A DNA stretch of 31,579 bases. Origin: a virus. The translations under genes and the position numbers were made by a program. The stretch is taken from IMG/VR virus record IMGVR_UViG_3300009001_000050, positions 1 through 31,579 of that record, one strand, 5' to 3'. Positions 19,857 to 30,733 of the stretch are shown here, piece after piece. The notes under the pieces were generated by a model. The model was not told the DNA's origin, made no database searches, and saw nothing but the letters and a program-made list of their open reading frames with translations. How positions within the stretch are numbered: the stretch's first letter is position 1; every line of letters begins with the position of its first letter.

Positions 19857-21074
19857 ATGGTTACGAAAAATACAAAATCAAAGTTTTGTTTCAATACAAT
19901 GGTTAATAATGAAGCACATTGTATTGAACGTATGTTAAATACAGTATGGCCTTACATTGACTATTGGGTAATTCAAGATAATGGGTCAACTGATGGGACT
20001 CAGGACATTATTCGCAATTTCTTTGAAGAGAAGGGAATTCCTGGGTTTTTGTATCAATTAGATTGGTGGGAGGGTCACGGTATTAATCGAGACCATTGTA
20101 TCAAAACTGCACTTGAAGCAGACCACGGATGTGATTGGATACTAAGAGTAGATGCTGATGAGCAGTTGATAATCGATGATGAATTTGATTGGTCTGTTTT
20201 TGATGACACCTCTATTCAAAGTTTTAACGTTGCTGCTCGTGATGGTGGTACAACCTACTTTAGAACGTGGTTATGGAATGCAAAAGAACCTTGGGCATTT
20301 TATCCAGACAAAGCACACGAGACCATTTACTTAGATAGGGATGGTATTGGAGAGGAATTCCAACGTGTTAATTTGCCTATTGGTATGAGACATCTACTTA
20401 CAAACGATGGTATGACTTGGGCAAAACCTATGAAGTTTTTAAAGGATGCTTTAAATCTTGAATTGGGTAATGTTCCTACTCGCAAAGTCTTAACTGATAA
20501 TTATCACTTGTGGTATATTGCTAAGAGTTATGCAGATTGTCACGATGATGTCGAAAACTTACCATATGGTCAATTACATAAGGAAGAATATGCACGTAGA
20601 GCAATATTCTATTACAAAATGTATTTGTATCAAACCAACCCACGTTATGAATTAGAAGGTATATCAGAGGGTGATGGTCAAGAAATGGCATGGTATGCTG
20701 CATTTGGAATCGGTCAAATGTATCGTTCTTTAAACGAGGATGAATCTGCTATAAAATGGTATCAAAGAGCAAGTGAATTTTGTGCAAACCGAAACGAAAA
20801 TTACTTCAATATGGCATTGTTGTACGAGAAAACTGGTCAATACCAAAATATGCTAAACATATCTAAGTTTTTAATAAGTGCTGACCGATACAACCCATTC
20901 CCAAATCGACAATTCTTAATAATGAATTATGCATATCCAGACACAAGTCAAGAACCACATTGGTTGCACGCACGTGCATTGGATTACTTAGGTATGGATT
21001 CAACTTACTATAAGAACTTGTTAAAAAATGACCCTACTACTCCTGAGTGGATTTTAAATCAAATCAATGAGTAA
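19857..21074 (+). CDS. Family 2-like glycosyltransferase with TPR-like C-terminus
   Basis: 405 residues. The N-terminal GT-A domain (about 10-200) has FNTMVNNEAHCIERML, then VIQDNGSTDGTQDII (nucleotide-sugar binding) and WILRVDADEQLI with a DxD motif (DAD), as in inverting GT2 enzymes. Residues about 270-350 contain a helix-turn-helix repeat pattern resembling TPRs (AFGIGQMYRSLNEDESAIKW, FNMALLYEKTGQYQNML). It lies 13 bases after thioredoxin with GGAG before its ATG, and overlaps the UDP-galactopyranose mutase gene by 8 bases. A galactofuranosyl transfer is therefore a reasonable guess. The acceptor (phage DNA, virion protein or host surface glycan) is unknown. Confidence 0.78.
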   Translation: MVTKNTKSKFCFNTMVNNEAHCIERMLNTVWPYIDYWVIQDNGSTDGTQDIIRNFFEEKGIPGFLYQLDWWEGHGINRDHCIKTALEADHGCDWILRVDADEQLIIDDEFDWSVFDDTSIQSFNVAARDGGTTYFRTWLWNAKEPWAFYPDKAHETIYLDRDGIGEEFQRVNLPIGMRHLLTNDGMTWAKPMKFLKDALNLELGNVPTRKVLTDNYHLWYIAKSYADCHDDVENLPYGQLHKEEYARRAIFYYKMYLYQTNPRYELEGISEGDGQEMAWYAAFGIGQMYRSLNEDESAIKWYQRASEFCANRNENYFNMALLYEKTGQYQNMLNISKFLISADRYNPFPNRQFLIMNYAYPDTSQEPHWLHARALDYLGMDSTYYKNLLKNDPTTPEWILNQINE

Positions 21075-22158
21075 TAATTACGACTATATAATAGTTGGTG
21101 CTGGGTTTTTTGGTGCCATATGTGCTTATGAACTGAATAAGGCAGGTAAGTCCGTATTGGTAATTGAAAAACGAAATCACATCGGTGGTAATGTTTATAC
21201 TGAGGAACGAGATGGGGTTCATATTCACGAATATGGACCTCACATCTTCCATACTAACGAAAAGTGGATTTGGGATTGGGTTAATCAGTTTGCAGAATTT
21301 AATAATTTTAGATACAACCCAATCGCTAACTATAATGGTAAACTTTATTCATTACCATTTAGTATGTATACATTTAACCAAATGTGGGGAGTCACAACAC
21401 CACACGATGCAAAGAAAAAGATTGAAGAGCAACGTTTTACAGGTAAGGTAACTAATCTTGAAGAACAAGCACTTTCGTTAGTAGGTAAGGATATTTATGA
21501 AACTCTAATTAAGGGGTATACTGAGAAGCAGTGGAGAAAACCTGCTACCGAACTACCTGCATCTATCATCAAAAGATTGCCAGTTAGATTTACTTGGGAT
21601 AACAACTACTACTTTGATAAATACCAAGGTATTCCAATCGGTGGTTATACTCAAATCTTTGAAAAGTTGTTGGATGGGATAGAGGTTCGTTTGGGTGTTG
21701 ATTATCTTAAAGAAAAATCAATGTGGGATGCTATTTCTAATAAAGTGATTTATACTGGACCTATTGACAAATACTTTGATTATAAATTTGGTGATTTAGA
21801 ATACAAATCAGTAGAATGGGATACTATGAAACTGAATACTGAAAATTACCAAGGATGTGCTGGGATGAACTATACCGATAGTGAAACTTCATTTACTCGT
21901 ATTATAGAACATAAGTGGTTTGATAACCAAAACCAAAAAGTAAGTTGGGTAAGTATGGAATTCCCAAAAGAATACAAGCGAGGTGTTGAGCCGTTCTATC
22001 CAGTGAATGATGATATCAACAATGAGAAGTATAGAAAATATAAGGAACTTGCTGATAAAGACAAAGTGATATTTGGTGGAAGACTTGCAGAGTACAAATA
22101 CTATGATATGCACCAAGTAATTGCATCGGCATTAAGTAAAGTAAAAAAACTTGTATAA
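21067..22158 (+). CDS. glf: UDP-galactopyranose mutase
   Basis: 363 residues. The FAD-binding N-terminus is YIIVGAGFFGAICAYEL followed by an acidic end (VIEKRNHIGGNVYTE), and the family motif HEYGPHIFHT comes next. KGYTEKQWRKPATELP is the substrate-binding region, and NYTDSETSFTRIIEHKWF and IFGGRLAEYKYYDMHQVI are conserved C-terminal blocks. It converts UDP-galactopyranose to UDP-galactofuranose. Size fits the bacterial family (about 370-390 aa). Translationally coupled to the upstream glycosyltransferase (8-base overlap), it likely supplies that enzyme. Confidence 0.92.
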   Translation: MSNNYDYIIVGAGFFGAICAYELNKAGKSVLVIEKRNHIGGNVYTEERDGVHIHEYGPHIFHTNEKWIWDWVNQFAEFNNFRYNPIANYNGKLYSLPFSMYTFNQMWGVTTPHDAKKKIEEQRFTGKVTNLEEQALSLVGKDIYETLIKGYTEKQWRKPATELPASIIKRLPVRFTWDNNYYFDKYQGIPIGGYTQIFEKLLDGIEVRLGVDYLKEKSMWDAISNKVIYTGPIDKYFDYKFGDLEYKSVEWDTMKLNTENYQGCAGMNYTDSETSFTRIIEHKWFDNQNQKVSWVSMEFPKEYKRGVEPFYPVNDDINNEKYRKYKELADKDKVIFGGRLAEYKYYDMHQVIASALSKVKKLV

Positions 22159-22605: not shown

Positions 22606-22809
22606 ATGGCATTGCGAGGAGAATCACACCCACAACATAAACTTACGGAAGACCAAGTAAAGTCTATACGTAAGTTGTGGGCTGTGGGTCACCGAAACAT
22701 CAAAGTATTGGCCCGAAACAATGGTGTATCACCTGCCAACATCCGCAGGATTGTAAAAGGTGAAACTTGGACTCATATTATTTTTGGAGAATTTAACGAC
22801 TACCAATAA
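22606..22809 (+). CDS. Small helix-turn-helix DNA-binding protein
   Basis: 67 residues starting at ATG 22606, one base after the MazG-like stop, with AGG just before it. LTEDQVKSIRKLWAVGHRN, then IKVLARNNGVSPANIRRIVK and GETWTHI, match the HTH found at the ends of phage HNH/NUMOD-type homing endonucleases and in stand-alone phage HTH proteins. No nuclease domain is attached. It could be an endonuclease remnant or a small transcription factor. The stop overlaps the following ATG by one base (TAATG). Confidence 0.65.
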   Translation: MALRGESHPQHKLTEDQVKSIRKLWAVGHRNIKVLARNNGVSPANIRRIVKGETWTHIIFGEFNDYQ

Positions 22810-23990
22810 TGTCAGAAATTAAACTATCACATAAGATTAAGAATGATGAATACACGGAGTATGTGTATAACACCTTTGATATTCAAGACCGAGATACTAC
22901 AAGTGTAAGTATCCCAATGAAAATTGGGGACTTAGATACATTTGAGTGGAATATCGGTGTAATCTATGGGAGTAGTGGGTCTGGTAAGTCCACCATCTTA
23001 AATAAATTGGGTGGTGTTCGTAGTATCAAGTTTGATGAAGAGAAATCGTTGATATCAAACTTTGATTGGTTAACTCCAGAAGAAGCAGGTAGAGTCCTTA
23101 CATCCATCGGTCTATCATCCATTCCAACTTGGTTGAGACCTTACCGATTATTAAGTAATGGTGAAAAGTATAGAGCAGAACTTGCATACTTGATATCATC
23201 CTCAAAGGATGGTGACATCATTCTAATAGATGAGTATACTTCAGTAGTGGATAGAGATGTTGCAAAAGCAATGTCGTTTGCTCTTCAGAAGTATATTCGT
23301 AGAGAAGGTAAGAGAATCATCCTTGCATCGTGTCACTACGATATTATGGAATGGTTGATGCCCGATTGGACTGTATCACCCGAAAAAGATGGAGGCGCAC
23401 TCGTGAGAGGCGAATGGCTTCGGCAAGGGAGACCACAAATCAATCTACACATTAGTAGAGTCGAACCTCAAACTTGGGACTTGTTCAAAAGACATCACTA
23501 TTTAACCGAAGAGGTTAATAAGGCATTTATCTTCCTATTATATGAGTGGAATGACAAGCCAGTTGCTATGGGAGTCATCGGTAGACAAATTGGTAAAGGG
23601 CAGGGGTATTCTTTAAGAGGTAGTAGAACAGTAGTTCTTCCCGATTATCAAGGTCTTGGAATTGGGTCACATATATCCAATTTCCAAGGTGCAGTAGCAG
23701 CAAATAGAGGTGCTAAGTATTTTACCAAAACGGTAAATCCTGCATTGGGTGAGTATCGAAATAAAAGAACTGATTTATGGAGTCCGACTGGTCACAACGG
23801 CAGACAACGTAATGATGAGAACTATGAATCAATCGTATACAAAACACTTAAACAACGACCATCATACTGCCACTCCTATTGTGGTCCATCGATAGATGGG
23901 TATGATGAGTTATTAGACCCAATTGATAAAGTTCGTATGATGAGTCGTGTAGACTTAGATTTAGTCCGAAACTTTTGGGATGTTGAATAA
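22809..23990 (+). CDS. ABC-type ATPase fused to a GNAT-like domain
   Basis: 393 residues. Residues 40-205 form an ABC ATPase: Walker A YGSSGSGKST (53-62), a short signature LLSNGEKYRAEL (114-125; LSNGE in place of LSGGQ), Walker B DIILIDEYTSVVD (136-148) and an H-loop His (ASCHYD). There are no membrane segments, so it is not a transporter. Residues 216-380 are GNAT-like: TWDLFKRHHYL (222-232), FLLYEWNDKPVAMGVI, and an acyl-CoA-loop-like VVLPDYQGLGIGSHIS (275-290). The HHYL block recalls the Mom-like GNAT group, whose founder modifies adenine in phage Mu DNA. The link is by motif memory and needs a profile search. Nearby modification-type genes make DNA or nucleotide modification the leading idea. 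Confidence 0.7.
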   Translation: MSEIKLSHKIKNDEYTEYVYNTFDIQDRDTTSVSIPMKIGDLDTFEWNIGVIYGSSGSGKSTILNKLGGVRSIKFDEEKSLISNFDWLTPEEAGRVLTSIGLSSIPTWLRPYRLLSNGEKYRAELAYLISSSKDGDIILIDEYTSVVDRDVAKAMSFALQKYIRREGKRIILASCHYDIMEWLMPDWTVSPEKDGGALVRGEWLRQGRPQINLHISRVEPQTWDLFKRHHYLTEEVNKAFIFLLYEWNDKPVAMGVIGRQIGKGQGYSLRGSRTVVLPDYQGLGIGSHISNFQGAVAANRGAKYFTKTVNPALGEYRNKRTDLWSPTGHNGRQRNDENYESIVYKTLKQRPSYCHSYCGPSIDGYDELLDPIDKVRMMSRVDLDLVRNFWDVE

Positions 23991-26598: not shown

Positions 26599-27297
26599 AT
26601 GAAAAAAAGTTCTATTGAAGGTTTCATCTCTCGCTATAACTTAGGTGGTGAGATTGAATCTGTAAAGATTGAGTCAACTGATGCAGGTATGTCAGTTAGA
26701 TTTATCTCTGATGACAAAACTCTCTTGGGTGATGTATCAAGTGAAGAGACTGACTTTCCAAATGGGGAGTTTGGTATCTACACCACATCTCAACTAAAAA
26801 ACCTATTGGGTGTATTGGGAAGTGATGTTGATGTAAAGGAAGGTAACGCAAGTTTGACATTTGGTGATAGTGGAACAACGATTAACTATATGTTAGCAGA
26901 CCTATCAGTAGTGCCAATCGTACCAGACCTAAAACAACTTCCACCATTTGGTTCTACAATCACTTTGAATGATGAGTTTGTATCTAAGTTCGTTAAGTCT
27001 AAAGGTGCATTGAGTGATTCGGATACATTTACATTTACTTGTAAAGATGGCAAGGGTGAGGTAATCTTGGGTTACCAAAAGAGTATGAATTCAAACCGAA
27101 TCTCACTTAATGTAGATTGTACGTGTGATGGTGATGTTGAACCAATTTCATTCTCAGCAAAATACTTGAAAGAAATCCTAAATGCAAATCGTGCTGCAAA
27201 ATCATCTTCAATGAAGGTTTCATCACAAGGTCTTGCATCTGTATCGTTTGAACACGATGGGTTTAAATCTAACTATTTCTTGGTGGAGATTAAGTAA
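26599..27297 (+). CDS. 45: Sliding clamp, gp45-like
   Basis: 232 residues, very near T4 gp45 (228). Two similar clamp halves can be seen: GEFGIYTTSQLKNLLGVLG (about 55-73) in the first, and FSAKYLKEILNANRAAKSSS (about 183-202) with SFEHDGFKSNYFLVEIK at the end, as in PCNA/gp45 folds. It encircles DNA and tethers the polymerase. In T4, gp45 is also the mobile activator of late transcription. Start has AAAGGA. The stop overlaps the TAGT-like gene by one base (TAATG). Placement between polymerase and clamp loader genes supports the call. Confidence 0.85.
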   Translation: MKKSSIEGFISRYNLGGEIESVKIESTDAGMSVRFISDDKTLLGDVSSEETDFPNGEFGIYTTSQLKNLLGVLGSDVDVKEGNASLTFGDSGTTINYMLADLSVVPIVPDLKQLPPFGSTITLNDEFVSKFVKSKGALSDSDTFTFTCKDGKGEVILGYQKSMNSNRISLNVDCTCDGDVEPISFSAKYLKEILNANRAAKSSSMKVSSQGLASVSFEHDGFKSNYFLVEIK

Positions 27298-28550
27298 TGA
27301 GTCTCGTTAAGATACATACACATCAAAGAGCAGAAGCAGAACGGATGCTACGAGAAATTGAACTCGAAGGTCCATTTTGGAACTATGGAGTTCACTATAA
27401 AGTTATAGAGGATTTCTACGATGGGTTTGACTTGACAAATGAACATTACACCAATCTTCCAGAATTTAGATGGTCACCAAACATTCAAAGTAGAACTTAC
27501 ATCAAAGTGGATACACCTACTGATGAGGTAAGAAATGCAGTATTTGAGAAGTTTGGTCAAAAGGCAGGTGGGTTGAATTATATTCATTATAAACTTGACC
27601 CAAATCCTGCGACTGAATGTGAATACACATTTGATTATAAGGTTGAACCAAAATACCCATTATATGTAATATCATTGGGTAGATGGGACAAAACATACAC
27701 CATTGACACATTAGAAGAGATGGGTATTGACTTTAACATTTGTGTTGAACCAAAGGAATACGACAAGTATGCTGCCAATCCAAAGATTGATGAAAACAAA
27801 CTCATCAAACTACCCGAAAACTTTAGTGAGAGGGGAATGGGTGGTATTCCAGTTCGTAACTTTGTATGGGAACACTCGGTTGAAGCAGGACATAAGAAGC
27901 ATTGGATTATTGATGATAACATCGAAGGATTTTTTAGATGGAATGATAATGTCCAAAAGAAAGTCAAAGATGGGGTATTCTTTAGAATAATGGAAGACTT
28001 TAGTGATAGATACGAAAACCTCGGATTAGTAGGGTGTCAGTATGCATCATTTGTCCCTGCTAATGAACCACGTAGAACTCAGTTCATCATCAATACACGT
28101 GTGTATAGTTGTATCTTAATTAACACGGAACTTCTTGACCAACGTTTGGAAGAGCGATGGAGGGGTAGATATAATGAGGATACTGACCTTGCTCTAAGAG
28201 TATTATCCACTGGTGATTTATGTACCGTAAACTTCAATATGCTCTTATCGGGTAAGAAGACAACAGGTACAGTAAAGGGTGGTAATACAAATACTATCTA
28301 TGAGTTTGGTGATAACAAAGAAGAGAATGCTAAGTTCACTGGTTTGCAGAAGAAGTTTGATGAACTCAAAGAAAATTGGGGAGACATCGTACAATATACT
28401 ACTGCAAAGCATGCCGATGGTAGACCACACCACGTTATTCAATACACTAAGTTGTTTCAGCAAGAATTGGTGATGAAAGAAGGGGTTCAGTTAGAACCAA
28501 AGGTCAACGAGTACAATATGAAATTTGAAAAAGCAAATAAAGATGAGTAA
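27297..28550 (+). CDS. TET-associated glycosyltransferase (TAGT)-like protein
   Basis: 417 residues. Residues about 118-380 fit the TAGT domain, a GT-A-type glycosyltransferase linked to phage DNA base hypermodification: YPLYVISLGRWDKTYTIDTL, NICVEPKEYDKYA, then LPENFSERGMGGIPVRNFVW, KKHWIIDDNIEGFFRW with the DDN metal-binding motif (about 206-208), and RGRYNEDTDLALRVLS with an ED motif. The N-terminal 115 residues are of unknown kind. TAGT proteins are thought to glycosylate hydroxymethyl-pyrimidines in DNA. The gene lies inside the clamp/clamp-loader operon: its start overlaps 45 by one base and its end overlaps 44 by 8 bases. No TET/JBP oxygenase is fused or adjacent. Confidence 0.8.
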   Translation: MSLVKIHTHQRAEAERMLREIELEGPFWNYGVHYKVIEDFYDGFDLTNEHYTNLPEFRWSPNIQSRTYIKVDTPTDEVRNAVFEKFGQKAGGLNYIHYKLDPNPATECEYTFDYKVEPKYPLYVISLGRWDKTYTIDTLEEMGIDFNICVEPKEYDKYAANPKIDENKLIKLPENFSERGMGGIPVRNFVWEHSVEAGHKKHWIIDDNIEGFFRWNDNVQKKVKDGVFFRIMEDFSDRYENLGLVGCQYASFVPANEPRRTQFIINTRVYSCILINTELLDQRLEERWRGRYNEDTDLALRVLSTGDLCTVNFNMLLSGKKTTGTVKGGNTNTIYEFGDNKEENAKFTGLQKKFDELKENWGDIVQYTTAKHADGRPHHVIQYTKLFQQELVMKEGVQLEPKVNEYNMKFEKANKDE

Positions 28551-29917: not shown

Positions 29918-30335
29918 GACTATATTTGAGCATCTTTCTGGTATAAAGGAGAAAAAGGTTTCTTGGGAGTCCCTATCTGATATGGATAAGAAATCTTTTT
30001 CACCCTTTATCATCAATCGGTGGTTGTCTATGAACTTAGAGTTGGTGGGATTGGTAAACGAACTACAACCATACACCATAGGTCAACTATCACCTCGTGA
30101 TACTTACAAACTATACTTGGATGTTCTACCTAAGAAGAAGACATTTGACAAGTATGTTAAATCTAAGGGTAAGAGCAAGTATAATGATAGTGTATTGGAT
30201 TACCTATCAAAGTATTTCGAGGTATCGCATCGAGAAGTCAAGGACTATCTTGAGATTCTATCGAAGGATGAAGTAATTGAAATCATCCAAAAATTTGGAG
30301 TAGACAAAAAAGAAATCAAAAAATGGCTGAAGTGA
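29895..30335 (+). CDS. 62: Clamp loader small subunit, gp62-like
   Basis: 146 residues from ATG 29895 (MSQTKKAKTIFEHLSG); the open frame extends further 5' but that part overlaps the zinc-ribbon gene fully and is a shadow. The pattern FSPFIINRWLSMNLELVGLV, then TYKLYLDVLPKKKTFDKYV, VLDYLSKYFEVSHREVKDYL and ILSKDEVIEIIQKFG follows the layout of T4 gp62 (187 aa): a substrate-binding 'FMVNR'-type start, a 'P-[KR]-[GK]-[KR]' loop and a C-terminal helical part. Position after gp44 agrees. It is shorter at the N-terminus than T4 gp62. The next gene overlaps its 3' end by 13 bases. Confidence 0.72.
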   Translation: MSQTKKAKTIFEHLSGIKEKKVSWESLSDMDKKSFSPFIINRWLSMNLELVGLVNELQPYTIGQLSPRDTYKLYLDVLPKKKTFDKYVKSKGKSKYNDSVLDYLSKYFEVSHREVKDYLEILSKDEVIEIIQKFGVDKKEIKKWLK

Positions 30336-30733
30336 TAAAAGAGGCAAAAAACAAAGTAGAGTGGGTTGGTGAAGAGGAACGACCAATTTATGGAGAACCA
30401 ACTGCACGACAATATTGTGAAGAGACCTATCCAGAAATGATGGAAGAATACAAAAGGATTATGTGGGAACAATATGAGACCTTTTGTAAGAAGCAACGAA
30501 ACTACGGACCAGGTAACATCTCAGTAGGAACTCCATTGGAGACAAAGGATGATGTAAAGTTGTCACTAACTGGGTTATGGTTCAGAATGAACGATAAGAT
30601 TCAGAGATTAAAACAATTAGTAGTATTGGGTCAACCTGATGAGGTTGGTGAGTCACTACAAGATACATATGCAGACTTATCAGTATATGGTATCATCGCA
30701 CAATTAGTACAAAACGGAAAATGGGCAAAGTAA
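30323..30733 (+). CDS. Nmad1/DUF1599-like protein
   Basis: 136 residues, helical. The C-terminal two-thirds fits the DUF1599 (nucleotide modification associated domain 1) pattern: YETFCKKQRNYGPGNISVG (the KQxxYG segment), LWFRMNDKIQRLKQLV (R-x-x-D/E-K-x-x-R), and ESLQDTYADLSVYGIIAQL (E-x-x-x-D-x-x-x-D-L). The N-terminus (1-40) is acidic. DUF1599 proteins were named for their linkage to phage base-modification genes; their biochemistry is unsettled, with a MazG-like all-alpha nucleotide-binding fold suspected. It ends the clamp-loader operon and supports a modified-DNA hypothesis for this phage. Confidence 0.75.
   Translation: MAEVIKEAKNKVEWVGEEERPIYGEPTARQYCEETYPEMMEEYKRIMWEQYETFCKKQRNYGPGNISVGTPLETKDDVKLSLTGLWFRMNDKIQRLKQLVVLGQPDEVGESLQDTYADLSVYGIIAQLVQNGKWAK

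Follow-up and report, generated by a model that had tools for sequence, protein, structure and literature searches.

The window, i.e. the whole 31,579-nt stretch of viral DNA analysed here, contains an intact ORF that starts with an ATG at position 22809, ends with its stop at 23990, and encodes a 393-aa protein in which an N-terminal ABC ATPase domain is joined to a C-terminal GNAT acyltransferase domain (Table 1). This fusion, proposed in an earlier note on the same DNA, is real, both domains being recognizable by their motifs as well as by their fold. AlphaFold2 modelling of the whole protein with 67 homologues as input gave a pLDDT of 89.9 and a pTM of 0.83. The protein matched the PHROG profile of phrog_11143, a family annotated as "unknown function", with an E-value of 2.3e-120, covering positions 2–352 of 357. 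Two further IMG/VR contigs contain an identical copy of the gene, and a third contains one with 90% identity.

The ABC-GNAT family is distributed over unrelated phages; its carriers include Nonlabens phage P12024S, Leptospira biflexa phage LE4, and Arthrobacter phage EastWest, which has a ParB pair (genes 74–75). In a tblastn search, 81 of 50,697 phage records were matched by the window protein, including 18 that aligned over at least 80% of the query and some in which only the ABC half aligned. ABC-GNAT genes are rare in cellular genomes: when bacterial genomes were scanned with the window sequence alone, only two members were found, and a profile survey performed afterwards identified them in 3 of 296 Bacteroidota genomes.

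In the window, the neighbours of the ABC-GNAT gene are a MazG-like gene, a small HNH-type HTH ORF, and PolB, and neither ParB nor mom is present in the 31,579 nt. A gene for a TET-associated glycosyltransferase (TAGT), located 3.3 kb downstream, is also found in both longer contigs containing the same ABC-GNAT gene. TET/JBP, a thymidylate-synthase-type hydroxymethylase, and Mom were not found in these two contigs, both of which are fragments and were searched for TET without a positive control. Given the nearby TAGT gene, a DNA-modification setting is plausible for the phage of the window; the evidence involving mom and ParB, described below, comes from its relatives.

Several other features of the locus were recorded. 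Positions 19857–22158 encode a family-2 glycosyltransferase with TPR followed by a UDP-galactopyranose mutase (GLF; E = 2.7e-74), two sugar-metabolism genes whose pairing is unusual within a phage replication region. Positions 30323–30733 gave a weak match, below the cut-off, to DUF1599, "nucleotide modification associated domain 1" (E = 4e-4). Assignment of the ABC-GNAT gene to an anti-phage defence system was rejected, the PADLOC matches being only partial and limited to the ABC domain (mad3, E = 1.5e-9, residues 109–173).

Table 1. Positions of the ABC-GNAT gene, its domains and motifs, and associated genes (window coordinates unless a locus is named)
Feature	Position	Strand	Evidence or remark
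ABC-GNAT fusion gene, 393 aa, phrog_11143 family	22809..23990	+	ORF, PHROG, AF2
N-terminal ABC ATPase (NBD) domain, residues 1-200	22809..23408	+	NCBIfam/Pfam ABC matches; Foldseek to MalK and MacB NBDs
Walker A, GSSGSGKST, residues 54-62	22968..22994	+	G54, S56, G57, G59, K60 invariant in 67 members
ABC signature, LSNGE, residues 115-119	23151..23165	+	L115, S116, G118 invariant in 67 members
Walker B/D-loop, IILIDEYTSVVDR, residues 137-149, catalytic Glu E142	23217..23255	+	D141, E142, T144, S145, R149 invariant
H-loop, CHYD, residues 175-178	23331..23342	+	C175, H176, D178 invariant in 67 members
C-terminal GNAT acyltransferase domain, residues ~207-360	23427..23888	+	AF2 of domain alone; Foldseek top matches all GNATs
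HHYL motif, residues 229-232	23493..23504	+	Y231 invariant; H230, L232 at least 90%; at KHYS of Mom in a weak profile alignment
GNAT motif A, acyl-CoA pyrophosphate loop, QGLGIG, residues 281-286	23649..23666	+	G282 invariant; Q281, G284, G286 at least 90%
TAGT (TET-associated glycosyltransferase) gene	27297..28550	+	Pfam PF20691, E 3.2e-35; possible second DNA-modification enzyme
Tiny ORFs with the C-terminal segment of the ParB-like partner	L049:7759-7884; L051:7852-7998; L040:7762-7884		

Domains of the fusion protein and its relative in phage pT24

The N-terminal half contains Walker A, an LSGGQ-type signature, Walker B with the catalytic Glu, and the H-loop His, as expected of an ABC ATPase; its Walker B/D-loop segment includes LIDEYTSVVDR. 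The best sequence matches of this half are ABC-F and transporter ATPases, with whose NBDs it shares Walker A, the signature, Walker B and its Glu, the D-loop, and the H-loop. Unlike these NBDs, the window protein has no transmembrane partner, a single NBD, a short helical subdomain, and no conserved Q-loop Gln, which was not found between Walker A and the signature in two family alignments. The interval from Walker A to the signature is short, at about 55 residues. No membrane segment is present in the protein, nor is there an SMC/Rad50-type coiled-coil insert, the distance between Walker A and Walker B being ~80 residues within a single compact domain. The absence of a membrane part, stated in the earlier note, is thus confirmed; as for the label "SMC/transporter-type" given there, the cassette is nearer to transporter-type or ABC-F NBDs than to SMC. 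The same best matches could point to an ABC-F-like or transport-like resistance protein that acetylates a drug or a metabolite. This is very improbable, however, since the protein has neither a membrane domain nor the second ABC domain found in ABC-F, the genes lie in no resistance context, and they are seldom found in cellular genomes and are exchanged with mom (see below).

The C-terminal domain, when modelled alone with AlphaFold2 (pLDDT, 90.2), shows a clear GNAT fold, and its top Foldseek matches are GNATs without exception (probability, 1.00). The R/Q-x-x-G-x-G/A motif A of the GNAT superfamily is present as the conserved QGLGIG, and matches to Pfam Acetyltransf_7 and Acetyltransf_1 were obtained below the curated cut-offs. 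Among the 67 members, F226, Y231, R273, V275, P278, and G282 are invariant, and conservation is 90% or higher at H230, L232, Q281, G284, and G286. F..HHYL, near the start of the domain, is a family-specific motif. Both of the segments singled out in the earlier note, HHYL and QGLGIG, are thus genuine and conserved across the family.

Variations on this architecture were observed. At six loci (L043, L047, L048, L050, L054, and L128), ABC and GNAT are encoded by separate adjoining genes, with a gap of ~1.7 kb in L128. At two others, the fusion gene is directly followed by an additional GNAT copy of this family that stands alone (L024:11149-11718 and L110:1653-2255). Salmonella phage SSU5 (L055:3512-6656) contains two ParB-like genes, after which come one gene for an ABC protein on its own and another for a weakly GNAT-like protein, and other ~110 kb phages contain ABC matches resembling those of SSU5.

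The combination of GNAT and ABC ATPase has been described in Tenacibaculum phage pT24, with acyl modification of a DNA base as the predicted function (Iyer et al. 2021, PMC7824862); that paper cites Iyer et al. 2013 (NAR) for the prediction. The idea of ATPase control of such a modification is therefore not new, contrary to what had been supposed. The pT24 protein is 54.5% identical to that of the window over 99% of the query, the homology being full-length and extending over both domains. In pT24, an in-frame stop within the GNAT part has led to annotation of the gene as two ORFs, whereas the window gene is intact; otherwise, no difference was seen. The reading frame of the pT24 gene (L002:8001-9180) is unchanged past this stop. 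Judged by its sequence, the window gene is a member of a published, so far only predicted, DNA-modification family. Neither an experimental study of the ABC-GNAT family nor a paper on COG2401 was found in the literature searched.

Relation of the GNAT domain to Mom and other acetyltransferases

Mom is a member of the GNAT superfamily, and the C-terminal domain of the window protein had been called Mom-like. As a statement of family membership, this was not borne out: Pfam Mom (PF25680), which matches Mom of Mu, Porphyromonas, and Microbacterium at E-values of 1e-46 to 1e-75, gave no match to the window protein at E < 0.1, and the profile comparison of the GNAT domain with Mom by hhalign was not significant (probability, 1.3%; P = 0.04 over 50 columns; P = 0.08 for the ABC domain as a control). 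At the motif level, the term is partly justified. HHYL was set on KHYS of Mom in this weak alignment, but the QxxGxG CoA loop, canonical in the window domain, was not seen in the Mom alignment, suggesting that Mom and the GNAT domain of ABC-GNAT represent different branches of the superfamily. Mom also differs in having no ABC ATPase; what the two have in common is an interchangeable genome slot and, in some phages, a ParB-like upstream gene.

The nearest solved structures of the GNAT domain identified by Foldseek are RimI, GCN5, Naa60, and PaiA, i.e. general protein or small-molecule acetyltransferases. The earlier note had held that a domain matching only such enzymes, with no link to phage DNA-modification genes, would refute its proposal; the nearest solved structures are indeed of this kind, but a link to phage DNA-modification genes exists, as described below. 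Acetylation of host or phage proteins, for host takeover or to block defence and with the ABC part as a sensor or remodeller, would agree with these structures, and phage GNATs of the phiKMV Rac kind have been described or predicted (PMC7824862). We regard this reading as unlikely, since it leaves the exchange with mom in one slot and the ParB partner common to mom genes unexplained.

Alongside ABC NBDs, Foldseek returned TmcA (2zpa) for the whole model, in an alignment that spanned both halves (436 columns; E = 5e-7) at a TM-score of only 0.25. TmcA, an NTPase-GNAT fusion that acetylates the cytidine amine of tRNA(Met), is a known precedent for a nucleobase target. As in the window protein, its NTPase is N-terminally fused to the GNAT part, but the motor is of the RecA/helicase type and the substrate is RNA. 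A TmcA-like acetylation of tRNA or rRNA, with the ABC domain replacing this motor, is given a similarly low probability: the TmcA-specific Pfam domains (helicase and GNAT) have no match in the window protein, and the neighbouring genes of the family are replication, packaging, ParB, and mom genes, with no RNA-processing genes among them.

Exchange with mom and neighbouring genes

ABC-GNAT and mom were found in the same genome slot in transposable Porphyromonas phages. Throughout the tail region, as far as the cassette, phages 011a (ABC-GNAT) and 013a (mom) show 91–92% identity, and they have a common right terminus; the last slot contains a mini-ORF, the ABC-GNAT gene, and a formyltransferase gene in 011a and mom alone in 013a. 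Among ten Porphyromonas phages with a common tail gene, this position is occupied by ABC-GNAT in five (006a, 007a, 008a, 009a, and 011a), by mom in four (012a–015a; the content of 014a and 015a was taken from the mom DNA search only), and by neither in one (010a). The two types are interleaved in a tail-gene tree of eight of the ten phages, suggesting that the exchange occurred more than once. The swap with mom strengthens the published prediction of DNA modification; it is known from one phage group, and right-end slots of Mu-like phages can carry unrelated accessory genes. A second exchange, in Pseudomonas Mu-like phages, is not claimed, the upstream matches there being short (54–118 bp, 79–83%).

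A gene abutting or overlapping that of ABC-GNAT encodes a ParB N-terminal domain at 36 of the 127 loci with an upstream ORF, and a 38-residue C-terminal segment common to the partner genes was detected at 38 of them, some of these loci being near-copies. Because the ParB profile was built from 22 of the counted loci, the independent count is that obtained with Pfam ParB_N (15/87). The ParB profile built from those 22 loci likewise matched the gene lying just before mom in L249 (E = 5e-40), L250 (E = 1e-42), and Microbacterium MenE (E = 5e-26), none of which had been used to build it. A ParB-like protein, DpdB, acts in Dpd DNA-base insertion (PMC12839542). Furthermore, mom lies within about 1.2 kb of ABC-GNAT in three contigs: L060, whose ABC-GNAT protein is 63% identical to that of the window, L106, and L112, in which mom is immediately downstream. 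The presence of both genes in a few contigs suggests that they are not strictly redundant.

Free ORFs of 41–49 aa that overlap the ABC-GNAT start in Mu-like phages match the C-terminal segment of the ParB-like partner (Table 1). In Porphyromonas phages, the same tiny ORF bears the annotation "acr candidate" (anti-CRISPR). A Com-like zinc finger was considered for the 42–49 aa ORF and rejected, as it contains no Cys-x2-Cys and matches the partner segment instead. At one further locus, the gene directly 3' of ABC-GNAT (L102:6939-8126) encodes two ParB N-terminal domains in tandem.

At five loci (L044, L046, L047, L048, and L052), a ParB-like gene is located upstream and terminase genes downstream, an arrangement that might represent a partition or packaging-start module of ParB and ABC ATPase near the terminase, with GNAT as a regulator. 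This explanation is given a very low probability. The window protein belongs to a branch of 53 in a tree of 80 members (support, 100/99), and no ParB partner is present beside the ABC-GNAT gene anywhere in this branch; the terminase is not always adjacent, the window gene lying beside PolB and those of Mu-like phages after tail genes; and the cassette is missing or replaced by mom in close relatives.

Most genes downstream of ABC-GNAT are ordinary replication or packaging genes. Formyl_trans_N was identified immediately downstream in 4 of 77 cases, and an aspartate decarboxylase (L045:9101-9523; E = 2e-33) and a CoA transferase (L134:4708-5271; E = 2e-34) are each encoded immediately 3' of the gene at one locus. 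These enzymes could supply or tailor an acyl group.

Proposed function and implications

The role in DNA modification put forward in the earlier note is the best-supported function, given the slot swap with mom, the ParB-like partner that certain mom genes also have, and the three contigs in which mom lies close by. ABC-GNAT probably acylates bases in phage DNA, its ABC ATPase driving or gating the reaction, and thereby protects that DNA. The complete active-site motifs in both domains of 67 members count in favour of an acyltransferase. Against a DNA acyltransferase stand the failure of sequence comparison to place the GNAT domain in the Mom family, with protein and small-molecule acetyltransferases as its nearest structures, the absence of ParB from the branch of the window, and the origin of the slot exchange from a single phage group. 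No earlier report of the slot exchange and the common ParB partner was found in the literature searched, which did not include Iyer et al. 2013, and priority for these two links is uncertain.

In the mechanism that we propose, the ABC halves would pair as a head-to-tail ATP dimer, grip the DNA, and expose a base, and the GNAT domain would then move an acyl group from acyl-CoA onto the exocyclic amine of that base; ATP hydrolysis would free the DNA and reset the enzyme. Acylation would protect the genome against host nucleases, as Mom does in Mu. In many relatives, the enzyme would work with the ParB-like partner encoded just upstream, whereas in the branch of the window it would not, and, more speculatively, the formyltransferase neighbour might tailor the added group further. 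We infer the DNA substrate, dimerization on DNA, exposure of the base, the exocyclic amine as the target, protection, and all steps involving ATP.

On a wider scale, it is possible, though we hold this only tentatively, that ABC-GNAT is a widespread second solution to the task of Mom, ATP-clamped, ParB-assisted in several branches, and with an acyl group varied by the neighbouring formyltransferase, decarboxylase, and CoA-transferase genes, giving rise to new DNA bases; in the phage of the window, it might add a second layer atop TAGT-type glycosylation. The natural exchange with mom offers a ready genetic comparison. If an ATP motor does control base acylation, the modification could be timed, directed, or processive, unlike that by Mom or simple methyltransferases.
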